A DNA stretch of 64,000 bases from the NCBI GenBank assembly GCA_023053575.1, contig JAKZAP010000021.1, positions 11,594,212-11,658,211 on the forward strand, in the 5' to 3' direction. Within the stretch, counting starts at the first letter, position 1, and each line of letters starts with the position of its first letter. A program made the translations under genes and the position numbers. Shown piece after piece: positions 4,144-62,330 of the stretch. The notes under the pieces are model-generated. The model was given only the letters and a program-made list of their open reading frames with translations. It did no database searches and was not told where the DNA came from. This stretch comes from Branchinecta lynchi. Taxonomy: Eukaryota > Arthropoda > Branchiopoda > Anostraca > Branchinectidae.

Positions 4144-7100
4144 GTAAGTGTCATAGCTTATTGGTTAAAATTGTATGTGTTCTGTCTGTTCCGTCCGTAG
4201 AGGTAGGCCTATGCTTCTTTGGATGGTGAGGCTTTCGCCTTCTTGCTATCAGACAAATCAGCTGTTGTTGCATAAATGTTTTGTCTTTTTAGTTCCATTT
4301 TGACCATTTAGCCAAAAACCTGAACCGTCTTAAAGTCAAATCATCCAGAATAACACATCTGGTCTGTGTTCTGTTTGTGTCCCCACACAAAGTGGTAGTG
4401 TTGGGCAATCTTCGAGATCGATATATCGGACCAAATATCGATATCCAATATCGAAACGTGAATATCGACATCGAAAACGATATTTTTCCATTCATAGCTA
4501 TTTATTGTAAATAATGCAACATAACCTACATTTATTTATATATCCGAAACTGGAGCAGTATGTTTTCCGTAATTTAGTTCTTATTTATTCGTAGTATGAG
4601 ATGATGCAAGATGCTATTTAACCACAATTTTGGATCCAGACCAGTTTTGCCGAAATGACACGTAACCTATAGTGAAACATGTAAAAGGAATATCAATATC
4701 GATATGTCGGCTATCGAATATCGTAAGTGAAAATATCGATATCGAAAAATCTCAGTATCGCCCAACACTTCAAAGTGGTACCATCCGAATTCAGCTACCG
4801 GTAACATCCGAAGAAGTGAGCATGTTGAACAAAGTGATCAACCCCCCAGCAGGTGAAATAAAACTGTCCGACCCCGGTTTTGGAAGCCTGAGCCTCATTT
4901 TTGTTGCATGCTGCAGGTCCACGTCTCGGCCGATTCTGGACTCTGATTCTTTCTACATCCGTTTTTGCACTGCAGTGCTTCCGAGGAACACGGCAGCGCT
5001 TCTCGACAATCACGGACTTGCTCACCGACCAAGTCCGTGCTTCCCTGCAAGGTGCTGCAGCGCTGCCGCTTCAACCAAGAAAAAAGTGAATCCGAAAACG
5101 CATATTGTGCAAAAGCAAAGAAGTGCTGCAGCAGCGATGCGGCAGCGCTATTGCAACAAAAACGAGGCTCTGGAACAAATGGACGAATTACAGTATGGCC
5201 GGACGCCAGCAAAAATATCACCCTGAACGAAAGGATAGAAATTTGGGTGTCGACTAAATTGCATCAGAATTCCACACAGCCGTGACGTACATAGTTACTT
5301 CATGTGATTGAGAACCCAACATAGGATTTTGATTGTCCCTAGGCATTTTCACAAATGTAAACGCGCTCGGCTCTATACATATATATTAAAAGAAATACTC
5401 ACCGATAGGAATACACTACAACTTTCTTTTCTGAGGTAAAATAGCTCAGAAGGGTGTGACGTCACGCTTGTATGGAATTGCGATACAACTTAGTCTATTC
5501 TGCTCCCCCACCCAAACTCCCCCCACAGTGCCCGAATCCTGTACGGTTATGTCAACGATGTATCTAGGACTTGTGCTTGTTCTTCCTACCAAGTTTCGTC
5601 CCGATACCTCCAGTCTAAGCGTTTCCCAAGATTTCCGGTTCCCCCCTCCAGCTCCCCCCAAAGTCACCGGATCCGGTCCGGACTTTAAGTGGGCTGTCTG
5701 AGGACCGAGATCTCTCCAAATACCAAATTTCCTTGCTATCTGATCACCCGTTCAAAAGTTATAAATACCTCAAGATTCGGGATTCCCCCTTCCTCCACTC
5801 CCCCAACGATACTCGGATAGGGGAAGTGACTATTTCCAACTTAATCATTTCGGGTTCCTGATATGCCTGCCAAGTTTCATCGTCCTAGCTTATGTGGAAG
5901 TGCCCGAACTAGCAAAACCCGGACCGACCGACAGACCGACGGACGGACAGTAATCGCGATCGCTATATGGCACTTGGCCGAAGGGCAAGTGCCATAAAAG
6001 GACTCCCTTTTAGATTCGGAGGGGAATCAATTTTTGCTGTTGTTGATGCAATAGAAAATTAACTAAAAACATTTATTCATACAATGTTTACAACGGACAC
6101 GTCAGCTACGATTCTTCATCAGCGACATTGTTTGAATAAATGTTTCAAAGTCAGCTTGGGCTCAAAGAATATTTAATTAAAAACAATCAGAATAAACAAA
6201 ATAAAAATAAAGTGGATCAAGACTAATTCCATCAACTGCCTTTTTTTTAAAAACAAAATTCGTTTTGGAAGCATTCCCCGTGTTCTCGCTGTTTCTGTAC
6301 GCGTCCCCGTGGAGTGACTCCCTCTATTCTCGCTTTTTCCCTTCTGTTTCCCAAGGAGTCCTCGGGGAACGGCGAGAATACGCCTCATGCCGCTGTATCT
6401 GTGGTTCCTATCGAACTTCAGCTCTTTGGGTTGTAAGTCAGATGCCAGTTGAGTTTGGTATATATAAACGTTGAGGTGATGCCGCTGCACCCCGCAGCGT
6501 GTGTTTCCGCCGCCGTTCGGTAGCGTTACTCCCCGTCCGTTAACTGTATTTGTATCTTTTATCCTGTCACTTCTAAACGTATTTGACCTATGTTGACTTC
6601 GTGAACAAACTCTTTCAGGCTTCGGCCAGCGTCATGTCTTCGCAATGCTTGGCTTCCTTGGCCTGGCAAACGTCTACATGATGCGGGTCAACCTCTCCGT
6701 TGCCATCGTTGATATGGTGAACGCACCCTCCCGTCCCGCACAAAACATCTCCCCTGGAACGTGCCCACTGCCAAACACGACGGACAACGGGATTCACAAA
6801 GTGCGTGTTCCGAGGTTGTGCTAACTGGCCAATTTGGCGTGAGTAGTGTAGAATAAAATTTGATTCAAAATATCTGTCACAGCAACGGTGCATTTCACGC
6901 TAACATAAATATAGTTAATCAAATAAAGGCTTCGTCATTTCGGCGTCTGCGTTAGACTTACAGATTTAAACATGTATGTATACAAATCTAAGCACAATGA
7001 AAATTTATAAATTTAATAATATAAGGCAAACTCATTTCTGGTCTTGGGAATTAGAAGAGATGTACCCTAGAGCTCTAGCCTACTTTTTACACCGATGGGC

Positions 7101-10100: not shown

Positions 10101-13100
10101 CCCCTTTGTCACAATTCATTAAGTACGGCATATCACCGATCATATGACAAAACAGTCCAGTTTCCATCTGTTCATTAAAGATTAAAGTACGTCGCGTCGT
10201 CTTATTTGTTGATGTTACACCAAATCCTCATCCATAGATATATCTCCCAAAATATACAAGAGTGATAGACGAACTTAACTCATGGGAAATCTGGGCCCAG
10301 CTGCCCATGAACGGGAGGGGGGGGGGGTCAAAATGCGTATTTTTCCTCAAGTATACGAGCTTAGAGTTTGATTCCAGTCACGGGTCAAAAGCTTTTTTCA
10401 TGGGCAATTTTGGGCCTACTTGCCCATGAACGGGGAGGGTGGTGGGTGGTTCAACTCTCCCCGGTCCTCATGATCCTGAAGCACAAAAGAATTTCATCGC
10501 CTTATCTCCACTTATTGTCAAATTAAAAACATTAAAAATTGGGCAATCTGGGCACAATTGCCCCTGAACCAAGTGGTGGTGGGGTTTGGGACCCGGAACA
10601 AGTAAAAAGAGACCCCAATACACACAATCCTACCAAGTTTCAACTCGATACCTGTTGATTCCTGGCAAGGGTAACGAACTTTACTCCTGGTCAATCTGGG
10701 CCCAGTTGCCCATGGACGGTGTGGGTGAGGGAGGTGCAACTTCAAATGCAATGTCCTAGCCCTAGGAGCTACACGTCCAAGAAATTTCATCGTCCTATGT
10801 CCAGTTCTGGTCAAGTTATGAACATTATTCACTGGGCAATCTGGGCCCATTTGCCCCTGCACCGGTTGGGTGTGGGGGGTGGGACCCCCAAAAGGCACAA
10901 CTAGATCCCAATACCCACAAGTGTACCAAGTTTGAACTTGATACTTGCACTCGTTCACGAGTTATGATCTCTACAAAATATGGTGAAAACCGAAAACCGA
11001 AAGCTGAAAGCTGCTACAGCGCTCGCAATAGCGGATTGTTTCCAAGAAACACTCCACTATAAACGCTTGAAGCCACAGAATACGGGACCCCTGTTAGGAT
11101 ACGCACTGGATGCGCTCCGTAAAAACGACTTGTGACGAACACGGGTTGAGAATCGCGAGCCTGAAAACGCCACTTGTATTTTCTGCTTGAAGCAGCTAAG
11201 ATAAACGAGGGATCGTACCTGGTTGAAGAGCACTTGATGAGCGGAGTAGCTTAGCGAGAGTATTCTCAGTTATTCATAACCTGTACTAATAATAATAATA
11301 TAATTATTATATTATTACATATTAATAATAATAATACAATACCAGTACAAAGAAAACGGCCAGACTCTAGCCAAACTGTTTATCCCGTACCTCTTTTCAG
11401 GAAGGGGAGTTCAACTGGGATGGTCCAACCCAAGGCATTGTTCTCGGCTGCTTCTTTTGGGGTTACATCATTACCCAGATTCCGGCCGGAATCTTGGCCG
11501 AGCAGTACGGCGGAAAACTCCTTTTCGGGTGTGGCATTTTCTTCACTGCCATACTGACACTGGCTGCGCCCCTGGCGGCAAGATTGAGTACTAAATTTTT
11601 CATCGCGCTCAGAGTGCTAACAGGAATGGCTGAGGTATGTTAACAGGTGTCTAATCTCACCTCGTTATCGAAAACTCCGTGTAATTACTTTTTTTTTTCA
11701 TTTTATTGCTGTACTTTTTTTCACTCGCCTATTAGGGACAGCGGAGTATTTCAAGGAAAGTAAAAGGCACAGTTGAAAAGATTAAACAGAACAAAATAAT
11801 TAAACATGTTTATGTTCTTTGAATACACTTAAGCACAATGAGACAAAATTTTACATGAGCACTGAACAAGTTTTTGGATTAAAATACTGGCTTAGAATTT
11901 CGTGGGCTGGCAAGGAAGAATGTAACTATTTCCTCACCTTGTTCAATGAGTAGTAAATTCATCATCAACATCAGAACCACACATATAGAGTATCGTATGA
12001 TCGCGGCTATTATACAGTTAAAAAAGAATAGAGTATTTGATAGTGCGAAACGGATACGTCAGATGAATTTTATAGCAGCTATGTTTTTTTCCCACAAGTT
12101 CGGTTTTGCTGAAGGAATATTTATAAGAATAGAGTATTTTAGTATTTTAAAAGAATAGCGTATTTTAGCGCCCTGCCCCGTCCTGGAAGGCTATTATAGG
12201 ATAATTGATTCCCCCGTCGATTCCGACGATTCCAAAATCAAAACCAGTAAATAATATGCTTACTACATGAAAAATCGTGTGCGTCATTTATAGCCGATGG
12301 TTGTTGCATCTGTCTTTTGGCATTACCGCAACACTCAGTTTTCATCATTCTCCCCAGCAGTTTTTAGTGGAGTGTTTATATATGAACAGTCGACTTGCCC
12401 CACTAGCCGGTTTCCGGTCTTCCGTATTCACCTTTTTGTCGTTTTAGTGGAGTTAATAGTTGCGGTTTTGTTCGACTTTTCACTCGCCTTTTCGATGGCT
12501 TTTTACTTTATTTGCGTTTTCGTAAAATGGTCCTAAGCACTGTTTGACAGTTTCCCGTTTTTGTCAAAAAGGCAAACGCCGACTTTCGGCTTTTCCCTTG
12601 ACCTTTTGTAAAAAGGCAAACTTGGTAGGTGACCAAGTTACGCTCTCCTTTTGGCTTTTGCTTCGCAGTTCTTACCAGTTTACCTCAAAATCCAACAAAA
12701 GATGGATTTGAGTCAAAATCATTAGCAGTTGAAGACTATCCTGGATAGTTAAGAGTACAGTTTATAATACAAATATAATACAATTAAAATGGCATTTGTC
12801 AAAATTGCGTTTTCATCCAAGAAAAGGGAGAAGTCCTTAGTAGAAACGGCGACTTGCAAAGTTCAAAAACGCCTGAAAAATGCTAAAAGCCAAATCCGAA
12901 AAGGGAAAGGCAAAAGTCGAACAAAATCGCAACTAATGACTTACCTTAAATTATCTTAAATCGCACTTGCCAGCGAAAGGTAATCCTGTCGTGCGCTGAC
13001 TCAGTGATGGATGGAGAGGGCCGCATCTTGGGAATCCCATGCAGTTTTCCAAGGCTTCCGAGTCCAGTTTTTGTCAACCGATGGCTTGAAGGCCTCCACA

Positions 13101-16100
13101 CTATCTGCCATGAAAGTGTTTTCACTGAGGGAATTCCATAGCAGTACCGCTCGATTAGTGAAAAATTGGTTTCGCTTCTTGGTTGGAGCTCTCTCCCGGT
13201 AAAACTTCTTGGAGTGTCCACGGGTTCGGGTGTTCTGTTCTAGCCGGAACAGGTTGGTGTCCGTCTCCAAGAGTTTGTGTGCCATAATGACGTCACCACG
13301 GCTGCACGGTAGGAAAGGGTTATTGAACCGAAAGGATGTGGTTGCTCGTTCTTACAGGTACTGGTCCCAGAAGCTCGAATTTTCCACCTATGAAGAAAGC
13401 GAATTTGATATCTATTATTCTAAAACGCTATTCGTCACACATACTCATTTGGTATACTTGTTGGCATTGCAATCTAGATATACCTCCCCCCCCCCTCCGC
13501 CCACTCGGCTCAGGGACGACTGGGCCCACATTGCCCAGTGACTTAAACTTGACCACTGACGAATACAAGGATCAATTTAATTTCCAGGGAATTACACTAC
13601 CGGCTATGCATTCGATGATGGCAAGATGGATACCCTCAAACGAGAGAGGCACCTTAGGATCTTTCATCTTAGCAGGTACTGTTTATATAAGGCTATATAA
13701 ATATAAGGCTCATTTATAGTTGTTCGCTATGATGATTGATTTATAGTGTTTTAAAGTTTCCAGTATTCTTATTTATCGTCGTGTATATTTAGACGCATAT
13801 ATTGTCAGTAGTTGTTTATTATGGTCTTATTTCAATTTTTGTACTCTTCAACTTTTGAGGGCAATAAAAGAATAATAATAATAATAATAATATCTCTCTC
13901 CCCGCTGCAAAAGTTTAAACTAGCGCACAATGAAGCGCACCTTAATTCTTTACTCTTTGGAAAACAGCAAAAGCTGGAGTCGCTGAAGTTTTCAAAAGCC
14001 TATCCGAGAGGAAATAGTAATCCTGCATCAGTATGTTCTTTTATCTCCGCACTATCCTTTAATCAATAGTTTCGTTTTTGCAGATACCATGGTATCTGTT
14101 ATCACGGTTACTGGATCTGCAATTAGTCGTTTTTTGCAGTTACACATTTGTATTTTTACCCGAGTCTATTCAAATATATGAGAGAAGAAAAGCTCAAAGT
14201 GGTGTAATTTTATTATGTAGGAATGCAATTCGGCACCGTTATCGCCTTACCGTTATCAGGACTCCTGTGCGAGATCGAGTTAGATAACGGGTGTCCCTTC
14301 GTTTTCTACATATTTGACCTTCTTGGCCTATATGCCTTAATCTATACCGCCGAGCTTTCGTATATTTACCGGAGTTTGTTCAAATATATGAGAGAAGAAG
14401 AGCTCAAAGTGGTGTAATTTTATTTTGTAGGAATGCAATTCGGCACCGTTATTGCGTTACCGTTATCAGGACTCCTGTGCGAGATCGAGTTAGATAACGG
14501 GTGGCCCTTCGTTTTCTACATATTTGGCCTTCTTGGCCTAGTTTGGTACTCGTTATGGCACTACTGCGTGACGGATGGCCCGGGTGATCACCCGAGAATA
14601 GGAGCTGACGAGAAGGAATACATCCTGTCGCACGTGGGACATAAAAGAAAAACAGTATGTATTTTATAAGTATCCCTTCTGTCCAAGCCAACTGTGGATC
14701 GTATTACTCCGCTAGACGGATAGTCTGCTGAGATTTTCGAGGTCAAATAAATTCGAGGTTGGATACGCGTCCCGTACTGGAGCCTATACTATTTTCGTCA
14801 GAATTCAACCTGCTTATTCCATTGCCCAGCTTTTTTTGTCTTTATTTCACCATAGAAACTTCCAAAAGGGTAAACAGTATCTAAAAAGAAAGCCAGCTTC
14901 TTCTTCTTCAGTGTTGGTTTTCTTCTGAGATGATAGCGTGCAAGCTGCGTTGACAGTACACGAATTTTTTCTAGGGACTTTGTTACCGTTACCGTTACAG
15001 CATGGGACATAAAAGAAAAACAGTATGTATTTTATAAGTATCCCTTCTTGACCAAGGCGTCTGCGGATCATATTACTCCGCTAACGGATAAGCCAGCTGA
15101 GATTTATTTTAACTTTATTTAGACCCTTCTTCACAATGGTCCTCTTCAGGCTCCTCTTCTACCTTGAGGCTGAAGACATTTGACCCTTGCTAAGAAAAAA
15201 CGAAATATAGTTAGAATAAATGTCAGCTGACCCCCCCCCCCCCAAATGAATGATTAACTTTTTCTTCGAAACTGGAGGATCGTCAAGTATTTGAGCTCAA
15301 GATCGCGCCAACTGGCAATCGAATGTCTCCATAAATGTCTGTCTTGTTCCAACTCTTCTCTGACCACCTCTCATTGGATGAATTTAGTTCACCTTCCGCC
15401 CCCAAGACCCGCCCCCAAGACCCGCCCCTCCTCTTTTATCCGGCCTTGGGACAGGCTGCTCATTCGAGGTGAAGTTATTAGCCCTACTTTGATATAAAAA
15501 TGACACTAATATTTTCTATTTCATTTTAGAAAACGAAGACTCCCTGGTTGTCCATATTTTCATGTGTTCCCTTCTGGGCGATTTTTGTGGCACATGTAGG
15601 CAACAATTGGGGATTTTATACTCTGCTGACAGAGCTACCTACTTATATGAAGACAGTACTCCATTTCGACATTAAAGCTGTAAGTAAAATATTAGTTGCG
15701 TTTTTGCAGATACCATGGTATCTGATACCTCGGTCAAAAGGCATTTTTGCAGTTATCGTGGTATCTGGTCAGTTATCGTGGTATCAGATATTCAGATACC
15801 ACGGTCCGACCGTGGTAACTGGTCGTGGTATCTGAAAAGTCATCTCACTTTCATCAAGTTTTGTCAGATTGGTGAGAAAGAAGCTTAGCACTTAGTGATG
15901 TAACTGGATATCTGTTTTTCTTTTGCGATGACTTCGAAAAGTGCAATTTCGGCAATAGTCGTTTTTGCAGAGCACCCTGTATCAGATACCACGATAACTG
16001 TAAAAACGACTAATTGCAGATCCAGTAACCGTGGTAACAGATACCATGGTATCAGCAAAAACGCAACTATGGTATCTGAGCAGTCTCCGTGGTATCTGAA

Positions 16101-22100: not shown

Positions 22101-25100
22101 CCTACGAGTTCAAATTCGCTTTCTTCATCCAAACACTCTTCATTGCGAAAAATAGCGTAGGAAAATGTCAATAAAAATTCACTAACATAACAAGTACATA
22201 ATATATTATTACTCTACATTATCTTCATGCAATGTACAATTTTGATTTCTTAATTTGGTCCATAATAAGTATTACTGATATTACGGTACTGTGAACACTG
22301 GCCGGCCTGAAATCGCGGTGTCGTTTCTTTCTAGTTATGTAGCGTTTGCGTGGAGAAGAACACCCGTCGAGTAGAAAGGAACTCCGGCCGACTTGAAAGT
22401 ATTCCGTTCGTGAAGAGACAAGAAAAAAGTATAGTGGGACAAGAATCTCTTTATGATGAAAGGAATTCTGGTCCACTTGAAAGGAATCTCGTCGGCGGCG
22501 CTGGTAAAAAGACAAAACAAGTCCAGCTAGCTTTTTTAGAGCAGCAGTCATCAGTACTGATTTAACAAATGGTCTCAAAACACTTTTTATGGCACTTGCC
22601 TTCCGGCCAAGTGCCATATACCGATCACATTTCCGTCGGTCTGTCGGTCGGTCGGTCAGTCCGGTGATTGCGAATTAGGGTACTTCCAGATATGCTAGGA
22701 CGATGAAACTTGGCAGGCGTATCATGGACCCGACCAAACTAACTTGGAAATAGTCACTTGCCCGATCCGACCATCGTGGGGGGAGAGGGAGGTGGTGGAA
22801 TCCGGAAAATAGGGACCGTAACTTTCAAACGGGTGATCGGATCGGAATGAAATTGATATCTCGAAAGATGTCGTGTCTCAGACGTCTCATTTCAAGTCCG
22901 GACCGGATCCGATGAATCTGGGAGGGGATTCGGAGGGTGGAATCGGAAATCGTGTGAAACTCTCAGAGTGGAGCGATCGGGATGAAACTTAATGGTAAGA
23001 ACAAGCACAAGCTCTAGATACGTGACTGACAGAACTGGACCAGATTCGGACACTGTGGTGGAGTTGGAGGGGCGTTCCGGAATTCCGGCGATCTGTATTT
23101 AATGTACTTCCAGGTGGGCTAGGACGATACAACTTGGCAGGCATATCAGGGACCCGACCAAACTAACTTGGAAATAGTCACCTGCCCGGTCCGACCATCG
23201 TGGGGGGGAGGGGAATGGGGCGGAATCCGGAAAATAGGGACATGCATAACTTTCGAACAGGTGATCGGATCTTAATGAAACTTGATATCTGGAAAGATCT
23301 CGTGTCTCAGATGTCTCATTTCAAGTCCGGACCGGAACAAATCTGGAGGGAGTCGGAGAGCAGAACCGGAAATCGTGTGAAACTCTCAGAGTGGAGCGAT
23401 CGGGATGAAACTTTGTGCGAAGAACAAGCACACGCTCTAGATACATCACTGACAGGACTGGACCGGATTCGGAAACTGTGGAGGGAGGTGGAAGAGGGTT
23501 CCGGAATTCAGGCGATCCGTAGTTAATGTACTTCCAGGTGAGCTAAGACGATTAAACTTGGCAGGCATATCAGGGACCCGACCAGATTAACTTGGAAACA
23601 GTCGCTTGCCCTATCTGACTATCGTGGGGGAAGGGGGAGACGACAGAATCCGGAAATTAGTAGCATGCATAACTTTCGAATGGGTTATCGGATCTTAACG
23701 AAATTTGATATCTTGAAAGACCTCATGTCTCAACATGCCCATATCATGTCCGGACCGGATCCGATAAACCGGAGGGGGGGTCGGAGGGGAGAGCCGGACA
23801 TCTCGTGTCCGGATTCGGGTACCGAGGGGGGGGGAAGGAGCTGTAGGGGGTGTCCAGAGTTCCGGTGATCGTGAGTTAAGGTACTTCCAGATGTGCTAGG
23901 ACGATAAAACTATGCTGGAGCATTAGAAACTTGACATCATTGGGTTAGACATCGTCATTCTCCGGACCGACCATACCTTAAAGAACTCATCTTAACCGCA
24001 AAGTACAACAAATTCTTTTAAGCAAAATTTACTTTTTCATGATCGCCATGAGCACATGCTCCTTTTTGTCTCAAAGGTTTTGCTTAGAAACTAATTTTTA
24101 GCACCCTTAAAGTGCGCATCGCAAACGAAAAGTAAAACAAACAGAAAAAACTTTTGACCATCACTTCGACCCTCTGACGCAGCCTAGCAAGTTTGGCACA
24201 TCTTAATCGGGAAAGGGAAAACAAGAGCTACGAGCTCATATGGCACTTGTTACGAGTAGGTGGTACACGAAAGTAGATGAGAACGTCTCGAAGTACACCC
24301 GCCATCCAAAAATGCGGTTCGGAAAGAGAAATAGGATATTTAGTTTCACTCACTTCTGAGCAGTTCCGGCATAATCTCGTATGATCTGCAGCATATGCGC
24401 ACGACTGTTCAAACTTCCAAGTTTCAGCCCAATAAATCCACTCGTTCGACCCCTAGACGTGTTACACCATTTCCGGTACTCCCTCCATCTTCCCCTACCG
24501 TGGTCGAATCTGGTTCGGACTCAAAAATGGATCGTCTAAAAAGCATCTGCTTTTATACCATCTATCAAGTTTCACTCAAATCTGATCATTTTTGGAAAAT
24601 TCCGGTACCCCCCCCCCCCCCACACACCGTTGGACCTCTGAAGCCTATTTACTATCCGCGTATCGTATCGACATGTACAACAAATCGCCTCCGCAGTTTG
24701 TAATAGCCTCCTCGCTTTAATATAATACGGTACGAACTCCCGGTATAAATAAATCGCAGGAAGCAACGTGACCTGATGACTCACTCGTGTCAATCCCAAA
24801 CCGGTTTTCTGGATTGGAGTAGGCGAGCTAATTAGTCCGGGAATCAACCCCGGTTGAAAAATAGTCGGAAAACAATGAACAAACAACAGTAAAGATTGAT
24901 ACGTAGAAAAGATCAGTGCGGTTTGATTTTAGCCAGTTTTAGCCGGCAAAAATCGGTTTTTATTAATAAAAGCCGATTAAAACCGCAGGTATGGTAAAAA
25001 TCAATTTTAGCCGGCAAAAACGGACCCCCCCCCCCCCTACCTTGACTGAATCCGTCCTTAAAACGAAATAACAAATCTAGGCCGCACAAGCTTGGCACTG

Positions 25101-28100: not shown

Positions 28101-31100
28101 TCCTGTGGCCCCCTCCAACTCTCCCCACAAGCATCGGATCCGGTCCGGACTTCGCGTGGAACATCTGAGACGATTGCTCTTCGATCACCCGTTCAAAAGT
28201 TAGGCGTGTTCTGGATTCCCCATCCCTCCACGCCCCCACGATGGTAGGATCGGGGAAACAACTATTCTCAAGGCAGTCTCTTCGAGTCCCGGATATGCCT
28301 ACCAAATTTCATCGTCCTAGTACCAAACCCGCGGAATCACCGAATCCCCCCCCCCCCAACTCCCCCCACAGTGCCTCAATCCGGCCCGGTTATGTCAACA
28401 ATGTCTCTAAGAATTGAGCAAGTTCTTCCCAGTTTCGTCCCAATCCCTCCACTCTAAGCGTTTCCCAAGATTTCCGGTTTTCCCCTCCAGCTCCACCCTC
28501 CCCCCCCCCAAAGTCACCGGATCTGGTCCGGATTTTAAGTGGGTCGCCTGGGGCACAAGGTCTCTCCAAATATCCAAGTTTGTTGCTATCCGACCAACCG
28601 TTCGAAAGTTATAAATACCGCAAGATTCCGGATTCTCCCTCACTCCACTCCCCCCACGATGCTCGGATCGGGGAAGTGACTATTTCCAGCTTAATCATTC
28701 AAGGTCCCTGGTAAGCCTGCCAAGTTTCATTGTCCTAGCACATCCGGAAGTACGATCTAGCGGGATCACCGGAATTCCGCCCCCCCCCCCCTCGACCCCC
28801 CACCGTGCTCGAATCCAGTCCGGTTATGTCAACAATGTATCTAGGACTTGTGGCTGTTCTAACCACCAAGTTTCATCCCGATCCTTCTACTCTAAGGGTT
28901 TTCCAAGATTTTCGCCCCCCCCCCCCTCCAGTTCCGATCACCCGTTCAAAAGTTATAAATACCTCTAGTTTCCGGATTCCCCTTCTCTCCACTCCCCCAC
29001 GATGCTCAGATCGGTGAAGTGACTATTTCCAACTTAATCTTTTGGGGTCCCTGATATGCCTGCCAAGTTTCATCGTCCTAGCTTATGTGGAAGTGCCCAA
29101 TCTAGCAAAACCTGGACAGATATTCTTTGAGCCCAAGCTGACTTTGAAACATTTATTCAAACAATGTTTACAACGGATACGTCAGCAGGAAACACACCTG
29201 TAATCAGGTTTGTTTCCTTCCCCGAAGTTGAACCAGAGGATTGACAGCCTGACGAGGACCCTTGCCAAGAAGGGCCGAAATATCGCTGATGAAGAATAGT
29301 AGCTGACGTATCCGTTGTAAACATTGTTTGAATAATCCTGGACAGACCGACAGACCGACGGACGGACAGAAATTGCTATCGCTATATGGCACTTGGCCGA
29401 AGGGCAAGTGCCATAAAAGCGCACCTATAATCTTATCACCAAGATCGGATTCTTTTGAAGTTTTCCTGTACGGTACTTGTAAACGCTGCATTGAGAAACG
29501 ATACACCCTTTGTGTGCGGTTTCGATTAAGTTTGTCGATACGGCGAGACTGCCTAGTTTCCGTGAAAGGTGTTTGCAGTTGATTATAAAGGGTATTTGGT
29601 GGCTTCAAACAAGTCATTGGGAATGGACGTCGTTCTATTTTGGAAGGAAGAATAGGTCAGAAGGGATCTAAAGGTCCTATCCCCGCTTCCTGCAGAAATC
29701 TACTTGTGTGGGGAGCAATTGGCCTTATGACAGTTCAGCACTCAGTTTCAGTTTCAGTTTATTTCAAATATAAACACATATCGTGGCTTGGGGCCAAATG
29801 GCGTGTTGAATACGTCAGTATACATGAAGGCAAATCAATAATGTCTGTCATAATATCAACATAAATAATTCAAACCGAATATGGCCTAACATAAAAACAT
29901 AGAAGTTAGCACACACAAGAATGACTAAACCTCTTTGTTGAAAATATGTACAAATTTAGGGATAAAACTATTACGGTACCGCTCCCTACGGTAGTAGCGG
30001 GGTTCTAGCTTGGGTATTCGCTCCGCACACGCTCTTTGCGGACGCAAACGTTGAGGTTAGAAGAGAGGCGGTAGAAGGGAGCGGAAGGAGGGGTTCTGTA
30101 GGGACTTCATACCAAAATGTCTGCACAGCCTCTCCCGTCTATGATGGAGGGTCTCAAGTTTAAAATGATTTAAAAGAAAACAATAAGGCATTTTAGGTCC
30201 TCTGTATATAATTCTGAGAGCACGTTTCTGTACACTATCAATGGAATTTGTGTCCTCTTTTGTCAGAGCATAGTGCCAAACCGGACACGAATATTCAAGT
30301 AGACTTCGGACAAACATACAAAATAGATTAATCAATACCTTTTCTGGAACCCCAAATTTAGTCAGGGTTTTAACTATTGACATGGATGAATTTCCTTTTT
30401 TATTAAATTTTTTTATTCTTCTTCTAAGTTAAATCCGAAGAGAGCGTAACTCCAAGAAGGGTAATTTGTTCAACAATTAAACCATTTTCAGGGACGGGGA
30501 AAAATTCTGGGCTACTTTTTAAAAAGGAAAAACTTACAATTGATGACTTATCTGTATTTACAACCATATTAGCAGTTAGGGCCTCGTCGGCTATATATTG
30601 AAGAATAGTCACTGCGTTACTTTTTAAATTTCGACCAACAACTTCAACCAAAGATAAATCGTCCACATATTTCCAACTTGCATCAGTTCCTTTTGCAATG
30701 TCCAATGTCGTTTTGCAGCACTCCAAGTGGACTAGTTTCTATTAGTCCACCATTGCCTCATAACCAACACTTGTGTAGACATAGTAAAAAGTCGGATCCA
30801 TAGGGTAGTGGGTCACTTTCACTTTCTGCCGCTGAGATATATGTAAAATCTCGATTACCTGAGACACAGATGACAGGTTTTCCACTCAATAACCTGTGGA
30901 TCTATTTTTACCATGTCTGATCCAAGTGCTGACAGTGAGGCATAGGGGGATTAACAGAAACTAGTCCGCTTGGAAGTGCTGAACCGGAATAGGGTCAATT
31001 AGGTATTCTGCGGTAATTTTTTGACGATGTGAATCCGGACTTGTGACTCCGAATCCATATCGACTGTCATTCAAAGTGCGAACATATGATGAGGATTTCT

Positions 31101-34100
31101 CGGTCGGATTTTCATCGCTTTCATCATAAAGTTGAAAAAATTTCAACTTTTCCGTATGGAAGTAATGATAGTGGTGAAAATCCGGGCAGGAATTCCAGTT
31201 CGGGAGCGCCCGACCCTGATCGTGTGTCTTGAGATTAGACGTCATGCATTCGGTTGCAAATGGCAAAGAAATAGGCTGGCGTTTTAAATATCTTTTCTGA
31301 AGATGGTTATAAGTGAAACGAATCGAATTATTACGGTGGTTTTGGGGTTTCTTTACAAATTCCATTTTTGGCAAAAATGTGAAAACAAACGACTGAGTCG
31401 AGATTTCGTTTTGAGTCCGAATCCGGCTTGAAAGACAAGAATTCAAAACCGGTTTTGCGTTTGCGGATTCGAATCTACGGTCAATTGAGCCATTTGTTGT
31501 GATTAGAAATAATAACAGCTAAACCGGATTCGTTGGGAAGTCCCTCGTGTCGCTAAAGAAAAACAGCCAAATAGGTTCGAGACTCTTTGTCATCCAGTCT
31601 GAATCCGGGTCGAAAGACATGGAGTCGAATTGCGATCGGGACATCTTAGTGCAGCTGTGGTAGGACGAGGAAATCACCATGCTTGGAGGTTTTAGTATTT
31701 CTGATATGTTTCTTCTTCTAGGGAGCTATATACCCGCCATAGCACTAATCGGAGCTGCGTATTCTGGCTGCAATACGACCCTGACGATCATCCTACTTAC
31801 CCTTGCAGTCGGAGCCAACGGCTCATGCTACTCAGGCTTCCAGGTAATAAATGAATGAATGAATGAAGTATTTTATTACCCATCAACAACACAACGGAAA
31901 GAAAAGATGGAGTATGTGAGAAGAAAAGAAAAACAACAATTACAAAAATACAACAACAACATTAACGTAGATACAAAATCACAGAACCAAAGGAAATTTA
32001 TCAAAAAAGAATACCCATCCAGGGGTGTTCAACATCTTTATACGAGAGATTCTCGACCAGTTTATCAACGCATAGAATGGGATCAGCGACAGAGTACCTC
32101 TGCATCAAATACCGGTTGCGGGACCAACTGGGAACTTGAACAAGATATTTAGCAAATTTAAAATATAGCTTTCTCATCTCTTTCTTATCAGAGGTGGTTA
32201 GGAGATCCCAGAATGGAGCCACAAACAGTAAATGAGGCAGAGCCACAGCGTTGTACAACCTTGCAAGGAGTTTTTTTTGGCATATTCACTTGCGATGGAA
32301 CAAGTGACGCATAAGCTCCGCGGAGTTTCCTCTCAGTACGAGCGATAATGAGCTTACGCGTTGCGGGCAGTGACGGGCCAATTGGTAGGCCAAGGTACAA
32401 CAGCTCGCTCGTAGGTTTTAAATCAGTACCACCAAGGTTCACAAACTCGGGAGAAAACTGGGGCGGACAGTTAAAAAGTAATACTTGTGACTTCAGAGCA
32501 TTCAAGGCCAGACCTATACATTTGTAATTCTTTTCAATTATTGGATAATTCAATTCAAGACTTAGAATCGATCGACTCAAGTTCAATAAGTCGTCAGCAT
32601 AACACAAAACAGAAACATCAACTCCCTTCACAATACACGAAGTTGGAATTTTAGTTTGCGCACTTAAAGCAGCATTATTATAAATAATTGGCGAAGTAAT
32701 GGCCCCTTGCTTAATTCCAAGACATACTTCAATATCCTCTTCAACCAATGCATTCCCAATCTTTAAACGGACTTTCAGATGACGATACATATAATAAAGT
32801 GGTACAATAATATCCGACATAACCCCCCGGTTTATCAACTCTAACATAGCCTGTGAATGGATTAAAGACCCAAAAGCATTGCTCACATCGTACGCACCAA
32901 TAGCTAAAAACTCGCATGTTTTACCAGAATCTTTCAATATAGAAGAAAGCGATTTCAGGGCCTGGAAACAACCCAGACCTCGCCGAAAACCGAACTGGTA
33001 TGGAGGCATCTTACAAACGGTTACAATATTATCAATAATAAGAAGCTCAAGTATTTTGGACAACACACTAGATACAGTAATCGGACGATAAGAAGAACAC
33101 TTAGAAATTGGCTTGCCCTTCTTTAAAATCGGTGTAATTACTCCAGTACAAAAGTTATCCGGAACCACGCCCACACTAAAAACCATCTGGAAAAGCAAAG
33201 ATAAGTGATTGATCATCAGTTGACTACCAAGTTCCAAATGGCGGGCACAAATACCATCAATCCCACTAGAATACCTCTTCTTTAACTTTCGAATAATGTG
33301 AAGAATATTATTCGGTGACACAACAACTGAACCAGATTTAGGCAAAGACCCGAGAGCGGACTCTATTTGCCGATTAAAATGCTCAGACACGCAAGAATTT
33401 GGTGCTTTCAACTTATCTGAGAAATGGGCGAACCATTCGGAAACAGGTATTCCGTCTGCAGCAGCAACAGATGTCGGCTCAGGACGCAATTTCCACAGCA
33501 AATCAGGATTTTTTTCGATCTTTTTCGCACTATCAACTCTACTTTGAACCAAATGCTCTCGTAAAACTCTACAAAATTTACGCTTAGCATGGATCCGCAC
33601 AGCATTTAACTGGCCCGTTCTCGGCCGATCACATTCGTGCCATACACGCAGCCAAAACTTCGAATCAGCGCATGCTTTTTGAAGGACAGGGTTACGCGAC
33701 CATCCAAATTTCTCTGTTTTTATCTTATATTCCTTCAGCCCAAGCTGACTGCGAATCATATTTGATAGCGCAAAACGGACACGTCAGCTGAATTTTGTTA
33801 GAGCTATATTTCGGCTCTTCTTGGCAAGGGTCCTCTACTTGAATTGGGAGGGGAGGCTGGGTAAAGTCGACAAGCGCAACAAGAAGATAACTAATTTCAC
33901 GTGGAAAGTCATTGTATTTGGGGAAAATGATATTTCTGTGCCATTTCGTCGTGGAAAGATCATTTCTAGTAAGAGGTGTGCTTTAAGGAAAGATATACTA
34001 GACTAGGTTTCTTAGCGTATTTGGAATTGGCCGCTACACGTAGACTTCCTAGCACGAAGCTGCTTGTTCAGGAATTTCTTACGAATTTCTCGAGCCCGGA

Positions 34101-37100
34101 CGGATATCTGCTTGTTCAGGCGCCCAGGGTCTGGAGAAGGAGAAGACAAGGTCTCTTCATTGACTTATTTTATTTGTCTTTCAAAAAGATGGCCAGCGGT
34201 GGACGCTACATTACAAGTACAACTAAATGCAAAACAAAAACAAAAGAAAGACAAGTTTAGGTGGAAGGCACGAAGCCTCCAACATTTGTTGAATAAGTGA
34301 GTAAGATTTATTTAGAAAAAAACATGATAATTTGCTAAATTGGTTGTCTTTTGACTTCCGTTATTACACTCAAAGGTTGAAGGGCCCATCGTACCTATAA
34401 TTGCAATGTAACCTACTTCACCAATTGCATTCATTAATTTTTAATCCAGAGAGTAGATTTCATATGTCATATTCTATAGTCGTAGCTGCACCTCACTAGT
34501 CTTTGCACTGTCAGCGATTCACTATTTTCCATGCATATTATGCTCCCGACGAGTTTTCGCGTATGATGCTATTGATGCATAAAACCGGTTATCTCCATTT
34601 TCCTAGTTTTTGCAAGAATTCAATGGGCCTGGGAAAAGGCTTAAAACAGCCAAAGTCGTGAATCATTTGTTAAAAGCAGAGCCTCGTTTCATATTATTCA
34701 AATAGTTCTAAATCCTGGAACATAAATAGTAGATAGTGCGAGGTGTGCTTTAACAAATGACGGCGCAAATGGCAGTACAAATATTTGCGGTCATTATTGC
34801 ACTTGCATTTTGTTGTACATGTCAGTGAAAGACTGCACAAACGTATCAATGTGCCTGTTTGTTTTTATGGCGCTTGCCCTTCGGCCAAGTGCCATATAGC
34901 GATCGCAGTTTCTGTCCGTCCGTCGGTCTGTCCAGGTTTTCTAGTTCGGGCACTTCCACATAAGCTAGGACGATAAAACTTAGCAGGCGTGTCAGGGGCC
35001 CCAAATGATTAAGTTGAAAATAGTCACTTCCCCCATCCGAGCACCGTGGGGCGAGTGGAGGGAGGGGGAATCCGGAATCTTGAGGTATTTTCAACTTTTG
35101 AACGGGTGATCGGATCTCGACGAAACTTGATATTTGGAAAGACCTCATGCCTCAGACAACCCACTTAAAATCCGGACCAGATCCAGTGACTTTTTGGGGG
35201 GGGGGGTCTGGAGGGGGCAACCGGAAATCTAGGGAAACGCTATGAGTGGGGGGATCGAGATGAAACTTGGTGGGAAGACACCTAGCAAACACTAGATACA
35301 TCATTGACATAACCGAGCCGATTCGGGCACTGTGGGGGGAGTGGAGGGAGGGGGAATCCGGAATCTTGAGTTGTTTATAACTTTTGAACGGGTGATCGGA
35401 TCTCGATGGAACTTGATATTTGGAATGACCTCATGCCTCAGATGACCCACTTAAAATCCGGACCTGATCCGGTGACTTTTTGGGGGAGCTGGAGGGGGCA
35501 ACCGGAAATCTTGGGAAACGCTATGAGTGGAGGGATCGAGATGAAACTTGGTGGGAAGACACCTAGCAAACACTAGATACATCATTGACATAACCGAGCC
35601 GATTCGGGCACTGTGGGGGGAGTGGAGGGAGGGGGAATCCGGAATCCTGAGGTACTTATAACTTTTGAACGGGCGATCCGATATCGATGAAACTTGATAT
35701 TTGGAAAGACCTAATGCCTCAGACGACCCACTAAAAATCCGGACCGGATCCGGTGACTTTTGGGGGGAGCTGGAGGGGGTAACCGGAAATCTTGGAAAAC
35801 GCTGTGAGTGGGGGATCGAGATGAAACTTGGTGGGAAGACACCTAGCAAACACTAGATACATCATTGACATGACCGAGCCGATTCGGGCACTGTGGGGGG
35901 AGTGGAGGGAGGGGGAATCCGGAATCTTGAGGTATTTATAACTTTTGAACGAGTGACCGGATCTCGATGAAACTTGATATTTCGAAAGACCTCATGCCTC
36001 AGACGACCCACTTAAAATCCGGACCGGATCCGGTGACTTTTGGGGGAGCTGGAGGGAATGTTGGAAAACGCTATGAGGGGAGAGATCGAGATGAAACTTG
36101 GTGGGAAGACACCTAGCAAACACTAGATACATCATTGACATAACCGAGCCGTGCCTACTCGTAATAAGTGCCATATGAGCTCGTAGCTCTTGTTTACTTT
36201 ACTGTCTGTCTGCGGTATTGACTAAACTTTAGCCGATTATCTTCGGCCCGTGACGTTTTCATGACGTCATGAAAGAAATAGGAAAATTCGATTAAACTAA
36301 TGATGCAGAATATATATGTATATTTACATTTATAAACCGTTCTAGACGTCTTTGGGAGTTAGTGCAGGTGGTGGGCAACTCGATTAAGTCATCTACGCCT
36401 AGAGATTTTTAGATAGTGCTTTCACTACACTGCAACAAAAAAAATCTTGCAGTATTTGGCAATGGGATTATTCTTGTTTATGATGTGATAACATTATCTC
36501 TAATTAAGATTAGTCTTATCCCAGTGGACAAGGCCGTATCCAGGGGTTAGGGGGTTGAAACCCTCCCCGAAACATACAAAAATCATAATTTGTATAGGCT
36601 TTTCCTCTCATCTATGTGTTTTTTGTCCTTTTTTGTCCGACCAGCAGGCAACCTCCCCCCCCCCCCCCCCGAAAGTCCCCCCCGCCCCCCGAAATCAATT
36701 CCTGGATACGGTCCTGCCAGTGAAGATAAGATTAATTCCAGTAGCAAATACTGCAGTTAACTTTAACCCTTACCCGGAGAAACTTTTCCGAGTGTACACC
36801 GCGCGTACGAATTTTCATTGCGTCATTTTTAGGTGAACCATATCGACTTGGCCTCCAATTATGCTGGAATACTCATGGGCATCACCAACTGTTTTGCTAA
36901 TATTTGTGGATTTTTGGCACCGTATGTTGTTGGATTCCTTGTAACTAACGAGGTGAGTGTAAGCGCCTTTATTTCAAAGTTATCCCCCCCCCCCCTCGTG
37001 TTCATTGGGCTAGCAGTTTTTTTTTCTAATTATAAAAGGATCCAGATTTTGCAAAATAAAAGCATTCGTTTGATTGCGAACATAAAAAAGAAGGTTGAAT

Positions 37101-44935: not shown

Positions 44936-45654
44936 GTGCGCGACCCCTCGGCTCTGATGGCGGGACCAGTGTTTCTGCTTCTCATGTTTGCACATGAGAT
45001 CTCATGTTTGCACATGAGATCTCATGTTTTTTTTTCAATCTCATTAATTTTTTGGGGATCCCAAAACGTAAGTGGAGGGATACACCTATGACATCGCAAA
45101 AGTTGTCCGTCCGTCTGTTAGCACGATAACTCTCGAAGAGGTTGAGATATTTTGATCAAACTTGGCATCAGGACTCTTTAGGTCAAGATCGAAGATGGGC
45201 TATGTAGCTCTATACTTAAGGGTGGGGGAGGGGTTTGAAATTAAGGGAAACAAAAAATATTTTTTTAAACCTACTGAAATAGTAGAATCCGAATATAAAA
45301 TTTATTTTCTCGCCGGACAAATAGTTCACCCGGAATCCAGCGAAAACCGGAAAATTTGTGAGAAGTAAAAGTCTAATATGAAGTTGATTGGAGTTTTGAT
45401 TTAGGGGCAAGGAAACGTGCTGAGTCCGAATATGAAAATTTTCTCGCCGGACAATTAGTTCGGCCGGAATCCGGCCAAAACCGGAAAATTCGTTTAAAGC
45501 AAAAGTTTCATTTAAATTTGATAAGATGTTCGATTTTGCGGTTAAGTAGACATGCTGAATTCGCGTATGACAATCATTTTCTCACCGGATATATAGGTCG
45601 CTCGGAATCCGGCTGAAACCGGAAAATTTGTTAGAAGTAAAAGTTTAATCTGAT

Positions 45655-45829
45655 TTATTCAAACAATGTTTACAACGGATACGTCAGCTACTAAGCGATA
45701 TCTCGGCCCTTATTGGCAAGGGTCCTCGTCAGGCTGTCAATCATCTTGGTCAACGTCGGGGAAGGAAACAAACCTGTAATAAATAACTGAAACTTCTACC
45801 GACTATAGATATCTTATTAAAGTAATACC
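45655..45829 (-). mobile_element. Hammerhead retroelement, copy 3 (175 bp, 13-bp target duplication)
   Basis: Flanked by perfect AGTTTAATCTGAT repeats (45642-45654 and 45830-45842) inside a family B element. Minus-strand sense runs from 45829 through GTTTGTTTCCTTCCCCGA, the ribozyme, GCTGACGTATCCGTTG and the TTTGAATAA 3' end. It shares the 3' end with copies at 29.1 and 6.1 kb but has a different 5' end. Confidence 0.83.
45693..45736 (-). ncRNA. Hammerhead ribozyme with one core mutation
   Basis: Minus-strand reading has CTGACGA, the same stem II with bulged A (GG-A-CCCTT / AAGGG-CC), then GAGA in place of GAAA, and the ATC cleavage triplet. The A-to-G change is at an invariant core position and should abolish or greatly reduce cleavage. 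Stem I is reduced to three pairs. Confidence 0.75.
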
Positions 45830-46614
45830 AGTTTAATCTGATGTTGATTATAGGTTGGATGTAGTGGTAAGGAGACATGATGAATTCATTTTTGAGCTTT
45901 ATTTTTTGGCCGGACAAGTAGTTCCGGAATTCCGCCAAAACCGGAAAATTTGCAGAACTATAAGGCAGGAAGTTTCGATCTGCTTCGTCAAATTGATATG
46001 ACTTAAAGGGGTAAACACACATGCTGAATCCATATCTGAACTTGGTTTTCTCATATGATTAGCTGTTTGGCCTTAATCTATTTCTAAATTTTAATAGTAA
46101 AAGTGTTCTATGAGTCTGGCCAAGACAAGACCCAATTGTCTGAATCAAATTTGAACTTTCGGGGTTCCATCCAAACCTTTGGTCCTGTTCAGTCATGATC
46201 TCATGATTTTCAGGATTAATCAGCTTTTGTAACCCTAAATACTAAAATGTGTGTCTAATGTATTTTAAATAGATGTAATTCTATCTACGGTTTTCAGATA
46301 AGTCGTCTGATAGCTTTCAATCGGGTTGAGATAGTTTGTATTTCATTGGGTGACCTAGGGATCGTCTGTCTGGAACCTAAAATGGTTCCCTGACAACAGA
46401 TGGTTTTGAAAACTTTCTTATGAACGACCCTTTGCTTTATCTCGTAAATATGGCGGTACCGTGTCGGGAGTTGTGAACTTTTTAACAAGTATTTCACGTC
46501 AGTAGCTTCTAACCAGTGTTACTCTTTAGCCTACCTGGAGTACCCCGTATTAAGCAAGTCTTTAGACGTAAAAACTAATTTTTTTTTACTGTTCAGAACA
46601 CTATCTACTTTATT

Positions 46615-51999: not shown

Positions 52000-62330
<10,331 letters not shown>

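Follow-up and report, generated by a model that had tools for sequence, protein, structure and literature searches.

The systems closest to the insert analyzed here are found among Penelope-like elements and metazoan retrozymes. Penelope elements of Adineta vaga, as characterized in the available part of the original report, have pseudo-LTRs in direct and inverted orientation, one member of the inverted pair may bear a 31-bp tail, and the inverted junctions contain palindromes; several copies are flanked by duplications of 8-10 bp and others by none, and solo pseudo-LTRs also occur around unrelated sequence (PMC3846280). For Poseidon of Anolis carolinensis (PAc), the accessible sections of a second study report two internal start sites for reverse transcription, which explain a 30-40-bp tail, as well as cutting and extension of both target strands. 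In this system, ribozyme mutations left insertion in vitro unaffected and, in the same sections, no reads began or ended at the ribozyme site (PMC11167929).

Helix III is usually missing from the hammerhead ribozymes of Penelope-like elements, which may work as dimers and whose role is not known, according to the accessible portions of two reviews (PMC6155905, PMC7761336), through which the minimal motifs are traced to Cervera and de la Pena (2014) and Lunse et al. (2017). Metazoan retrozymes are presented, in the available text of PMC7229834, as tandemly repeated elements whose type I hammerheads are canonical, and it has been suggested that retrozymes may derive from Penelope-like elements (PMC11722881, available in part).

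In this study, we analyzed a short insert at 29.1k within a 64-kb stretch of DNA; this whole stretch is referred to as the window. The insert is very probably an insertion of a Penelope-type pseudo-LTR sequence alone, carrying a minimal hammerhead of a type that may function as a dimer. It is organized as a head-to-head pair composed of a tailed inverted arm, a palindrome and a tailless direct arm that bears the ribozyme motif (Table 1). Within the palindrome, positions 29187-29200 pair with 29205-29218, and the left half, when inverted, matches direct sequence of the related copy at 45.7k (18 nt, 94%). The inverted arm carries no ribozyme, as the palindrome half passes straight into the 34-bp stretch, and its outer part is identical to the copy at 6.1k (47 nt at 100%, BLAST). 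The direct arm terminates in ...GTTTGAATAAT. The 34-bp perfect inverted repeat, the palindrome and the tail are all absent from the description given in the initial annotation of this DNA.

Table 1. Positions of the insert, its parts and related copies in the window
Feature	Position	Strand	Remarks
Insert, 216 bp	29121-29336		flanked by perfect 10-bp target duplication
Left target-site duplication, CCTGGACAGA	29111..29120	.	identical to 29337-29346 over 10 bp
Right target-site duplication	29337..29346	.	from duplication comparison
Inverted pseudo-LTR arm including tail	29121..29186	-	34 bp perfectly complementary to 29302-29335
32-bp tail, inverted arm only	29121..29152	-	matches longer 3' end of 33.8k copy (33759-33728, 84%)
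Junction palindrome (head-to-head)	29187..29218	.	14-bp arms, 93% complementary, 4-nt loop
Tailless direct pseudo-LTR arm	29205..29336	+	88.6% identity to 45.7k copy, 131 columns
Minimal type I hammerhead ribozyme motif	29245..29288	+	predicted cleavage 29284/29285
Related copy 6.1k	6059..6185	-	inverted tail arm joined to direct arm starting 1-2 nt before ribozyme site
Older related copy 12.0k	12024..12138	-	inverted tail end, inverted internal piece, direct arm from ribozyme site
Older head-to-head pair of related arms	15073..15237	.	15178-15073 on -, 15142-15237 on +
Older related copy 33.8k	33728..33865	-	tail kept on direct strand; ribozyme core lost
Closest related copy 45.7k	45642..45842	-	direct arm only plus upstream sequence; core GAGA, not GAAA

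The hammerhead motif consists of CTGACGA (29249-29255), the stem II strand (29256-29276), GAAA (29277-29280) and TATC (29281-29284), enclosed by a stem I of CAGC/GCTG (29245-29248 and 29285-29288). The invariant core, the 4-bp stem I and the 7-bp stem II with one bulged A listed in the initial annotation are all present. The minimal stem III that it also listed is really no stem at all: helix III is absent, and in its place there is only a self-complementary AUAU, which could pair only between two copies. By analogy with known minimal hammerheads, the motif possibly acts as a dimer. When two copies of the motif were cofolded, stems I and II paired between strands; this calculation does not model AUAU pairing and is thus uninformative on dimer action.

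The minimum free energy structure of 29245-29288 consists of stems I and II and nothing else (-13.7 kcal/mol, z -2.42), and 4 of 200 shuffles were equally stable. The same hammerhead stems form in the fold of the entire 216-nt insert, with pair probabilities of 0.78-1.00, and the 34-bp repeat becomes a long stem presenting the palindrome hairpin and the hammerhead. A full descriptor, built from general knowledge of hammerheads, has a single match in the window, the 29.1k motif, and the loose pattern CTGANGA...GAAA has nine. With limits chosen after the motif was seen, a descriptor requiring a stem II of at least 7 bp matched 1 of 2000 Markov-simulated windows, one requiring at least 5 bp matched 13 of 2000 (2 of 300 in another run), and one additionally requiring a loopless 4-nt stem III matched 0 of 2000. 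The covariance search with the Rfam hammerhead model proposed in the initial annotation scored at background, with no match at gathering score in the 64-kb window and none at E up to 10 in 28900-29500; this model expects a helix III, and the 29.1k variant has none. Exact-pattern scans likewise gave 0 matches in viral contigs and 0 in genome contigs, and no match in phage records.

Target duplications were compared for four copies (29.1k, 45.7k, 12.0k and 6.1k), with the ends placed by the analyst. Exact duplications of 10, 13 and 14 bp flank the 29.1k, 45.7k and 12.0k copies, and these lengths were reached by 0.45%, 0.15% and 0.15% of 2000 random flank pairs, respectively, although the 12.0k match is not blind because the end of this copy was reset after reading the sequence. 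At 6.1k, 12 of 13 bp match and only 8 bp are exact; in 2000 random flank pairs, 8 exact bp occurred in 1.35% and 13 bp with one mismatch in 0.6%. The perfect 10-bp duplication reported earlier is exact, and the two further copies said to share its 3' end were also recovered: the 3' part of the 29.1k insert is 93% identical to that of 6.1k over 57 positions and 100% identical to that of 45.7k over the last 34-36. By eye, the targets are AT-rich in three of the four duplicated sites, the exception being 29.1k.

Two ends recur among the copies. The inverted arms of 29.1k, 6.1k and 12.0k begin at the tail end (TATTC[T/C]TT..AGC), the start in 12.0k being a 13-nt match to the 33.8k tail judged by eye. 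The direct arms of 29.1k, 6.1k and 45.7k stop at T[T/A]TGAATAA, within a few nt.

A family profile built from seven copies (29.2k, 33.8k, 15.1k, 48.2k, 56.4k, 45.7k and 15.2k) detected ten places in the 64-kb window, including 29.1k and with the inverted arm of the insert counted apart. Beyond the seven builders, it matched 12.0k (E 6.7e-8), 6.1k (3.3e-6) and 52.9k (2.4e-4), and the 15.1k and 15.2k matches form one head-to-head pair. We call the 29.1k, 45.7k and 6.1k copies young, judging from their sequences, and the remaining copies are more diverged. The young copies share the direct arm and have different 5' structures, which suggests that one pseudo-LTR gave rise to each of them by a separate insertion. 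With no fixed 216-bp unit among them, the new non-autonomous family suggested in the initial annotation is a weak proposition. The 52.9k match (52852-52932, minus strand) looks like a remote hammerhead-like relative, in which stem II is strong and, by eye, stem I is not clear. Near the head-to-head pair, 14635-14736 and 15000-15105 (minus strand) are 89% alike over 104 columns and continue to be alike past the tail end of the family, reflecting either a local duplication or common internal element sequence.

No Penelope reverse transcriptase (RT) or GIY-YIG domain was detected in the insert or in 20 window stretches scanned with Pfam, in which the one RT belongs to a LINE. The profile scan covered these 20 stretches; an RT or GIY/YIG word occurs in 8 of the 324 frames of at least 60 aa, and all eight are within the scanned stretches. 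Since no Penelope ORF was found, the placement of the insert rests on anatomy. The RT ORF at 32188-33783 (minus strand) was considered as a partner of the adjoining 33.8k ribozyme copy and was set aside. It is 5'-truncated, has an RVT_1 domain with YADD and an ATTC-repeat tail near 31.86k, and we read it as a LINE beside the repeat on the evidence of its relatives. The endonuclease domain PF03372 occurs in 6 of 38 listed relatives, including the two best (7995 top word-sharing candidates scored), and the closest named match among those listed, a protein of Artemia franciscana, is 51% identical over 40% of the query. Separately, a short frame with YVDD at 30427-30738 (minus strand) resembles a second RT fragment and had no Pfam match. 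A frame also crosses the ribozyme, reading MIDSLTRTLANKGRDIA to a stop at 45.7k (45655-45776, minus strand) and RIDSLTRTLAKKGRNIADEE to a stop at 29.1k (29205-29336, plus strand); it may be what is left of an ORF start, because the ORF start of the anole element overlaps its ribozyme (PMC11167929, available in part).

Other features of the window include large tandem arrays at 22680-23802, 35041-36151 and 54039-55493, whose units measure 281-423 bp. The 22680 unit, in reverse complement, looks by eye similar to the left flank of the insert (29040-29110). An exon-like stretch at 52436-52972 (plus strand) matches DUF846 (E 6.5e-16), which we take to be TVP23-like; protein searches with it gave 3 matches among 100 candidates, all schistosomatid and 58-61% identical over about a quarter of the query. 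At 59834-60229 (minus strand), there is a weak ABCC10_N match (E 0.0054) under the curated cut-off.

Comparison with the described systems supports the kinship with Penelope terminal repeats that had been proposed from the motif. The window copies show inverted and direct arms (29.1k, 6.1k and 15.1k), a 32-bp tail, a junction palindrome and variable duplications. Direct and inverted pseudo-LTRs, an optional tail, a junction palindrome and duplications are likewise found in Pen2a_Av and its kin, as far as the available text describes them; their ORF usually lies between pseudo-LTRs, whereas the 29.1k insert has none, and the direct arm is 132 bp at 29.1k compared to about 193-218 bp in Adineta vaga (PMC3846280). 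The word hammerhead is absent from that paper, whereas the motif is present at 29.1k. PAc resembles the insert in having a pseudo-LTR hammerhead with stems I and II and a tail, and differs in that its ribozyme overlaps an ORF start, an ORF not found at 29.1k (PMC11167929, accessible sections). The 29.1k motif, with its invariant core, stems I and II and no helix III nucleotides, is like the minimal Penelope-like hammerheads outlined in the reviews in its type I order and missing helix III, but its sequence differs and its activity is predicted. On the non-coding points checked, the insert agrees with the Penelope description. Penelope-type elements and such ribozymes are already known, and the insert adds one more member.

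Retrozymes were the other relatives named in the initial annotation. Small, non-coding and with a type I hammerhead, the insert could be read as a metazoan retrozyme; such non-autonomous elements measure 170-400 nt and spread via small circular RNAs made by a ribozyme of this type. The size, type I stem order and duplication (more than 4 bp) of the insert agree with the published account, of which part is available (PMC7229834). That account describes tandem arrays and canonical hammerheads, whereas here two arms stand in inverted order, a Penelope-like tail is present and the minimal hammerhead has no helix III, and no tandem array (repeat 150-450 bp) was found over 29111-29346. We consider a retrozyme quite improbable and have rejected it on the missing array and helix. 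The perfect 34-bp inverted repeat near both ends of the insert invites yet another interpretation, that of a MITE with 34-bp terminal inverted repeats and a hammerhead-like stretch arising by chance. The left side carries 32 bp of tail outside the repeat, the arms vary between copies, and the duplications range from 10 to 14 bp, so that a MITE was likewise rejected; it seems scarcely credible. In sum, the observations in the initial annotation are confirmed and its interpretation is partly supported.

A more serious alternative accepts the pseudo-LTR and holds that the hammerhead is inert, the motif being intact merely because the 29.1k copy is young. Of the copies examined, 29.1k alone passes the full descriptor. 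Cores or stems are damaged in the others, even in the close 45.7k copy, which has GAGA for GAAA and three of four stem I pairs; the 48.1k core has extra bases and the 56.4k core a deletion. Decay of old copies after insertion would, however, be expected. When the sequences were aligned by hand, all four stem I pairs were kept in 3 of 7 copies, and the outer pair was swapped, with GAGC/GCTC at 48.1k and 56.4k versus CAGC/GCTG at 29.1k, i.e., G-C in place of C-G, which speaks against inertness although these two cores are otherwise damaged. In an automatic alignment of eight copies, the number of pairs with both partners changed was 0, and 70.9% of cells were paired compared to 72.8% in shuffles and 35-56% with partners slid; this alignment misplaces the 33.8k and 56.4k copies and includes an incomplete 52.9k copy. 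Covariation in the hammerhead stems is accordingly not established among the window copies. The dispensability of the PAc ribozyme for insertion in vitro, as given in the accessible text (PMC11167929), also favors an inert motif, whereas the start of the 6.1k and 12.0k direct arms at the ribozyme site argues against it. On balance, we regard an inert hammerhead as unlikely.

Under the preferred reading, an insertion of a Penelope-type pseudo-LTR, a tandem transcript of a Penelope-like element would cleave itself at the ribozyme, acting as a dimer formed via the self-complementary AUAU. A reverse transcriptase supplied in trans by an element would nick both target strands and begin copying at one of two internal sites, either the short-form end (...T[T/A]TGAATAA) or the tail end (...GAATA). 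The head-to-head arms, together with the 10-14-bp duplication, could then result from copying off both target strands or from self-priming by the palindrome.

Two other copies provide a possible trace of the cleavage step. The inverted arm of 6.1k ends in ...AACAATGT, followed by one C and then by the direct arm from the first base past the predicted cut; counted from the other side, the match to the 29.1k arm also includes the 2 bases before the cut. In the 12.0k copy, an inverted internal piece ends in ...CATA (aligned to 48.1k), the cut marks the beginning of the direct arm, and ATA (3 bases) is common to both sides. The direct arms of these copies thus start 0-3 nt from the predicted cut. 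With starts spread evenly along the 132-bp arm, the probability that two among five copies (29.1k, 45.7k, 6.1k, 12.0k and 15.1k) fall in a 5-base span is about 0.013, a post hoc value from few copies. These junctions are suggestive of a ribozyme cut that may set where new copies begin, and microhomology joining without cleavage is a possible alternative source of both. We put forward only tentatively, and with some doubt, the further reading that the minimal hammerhead works in vivo, that the RNA copied by Penelope-type enzymes owes its 5' end to the ribozyme cut, and that 6.1k and 12.0k are the genomic footprint of this activity. No paper on cut-site junctions was found in the literature searched, with many subscription papers outside it, and we make no claim of priority. 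The accessible text of a 2020 review calls the in vivo activity and role of hammerheads in Penelope-like elements a mystery (PMC7761336). With pseudo-LTR copies so dense and variously joined (ten places in 64 kb), genome-wide counts of 5' junctions could probe the role of the ribozyme cut in insertions.
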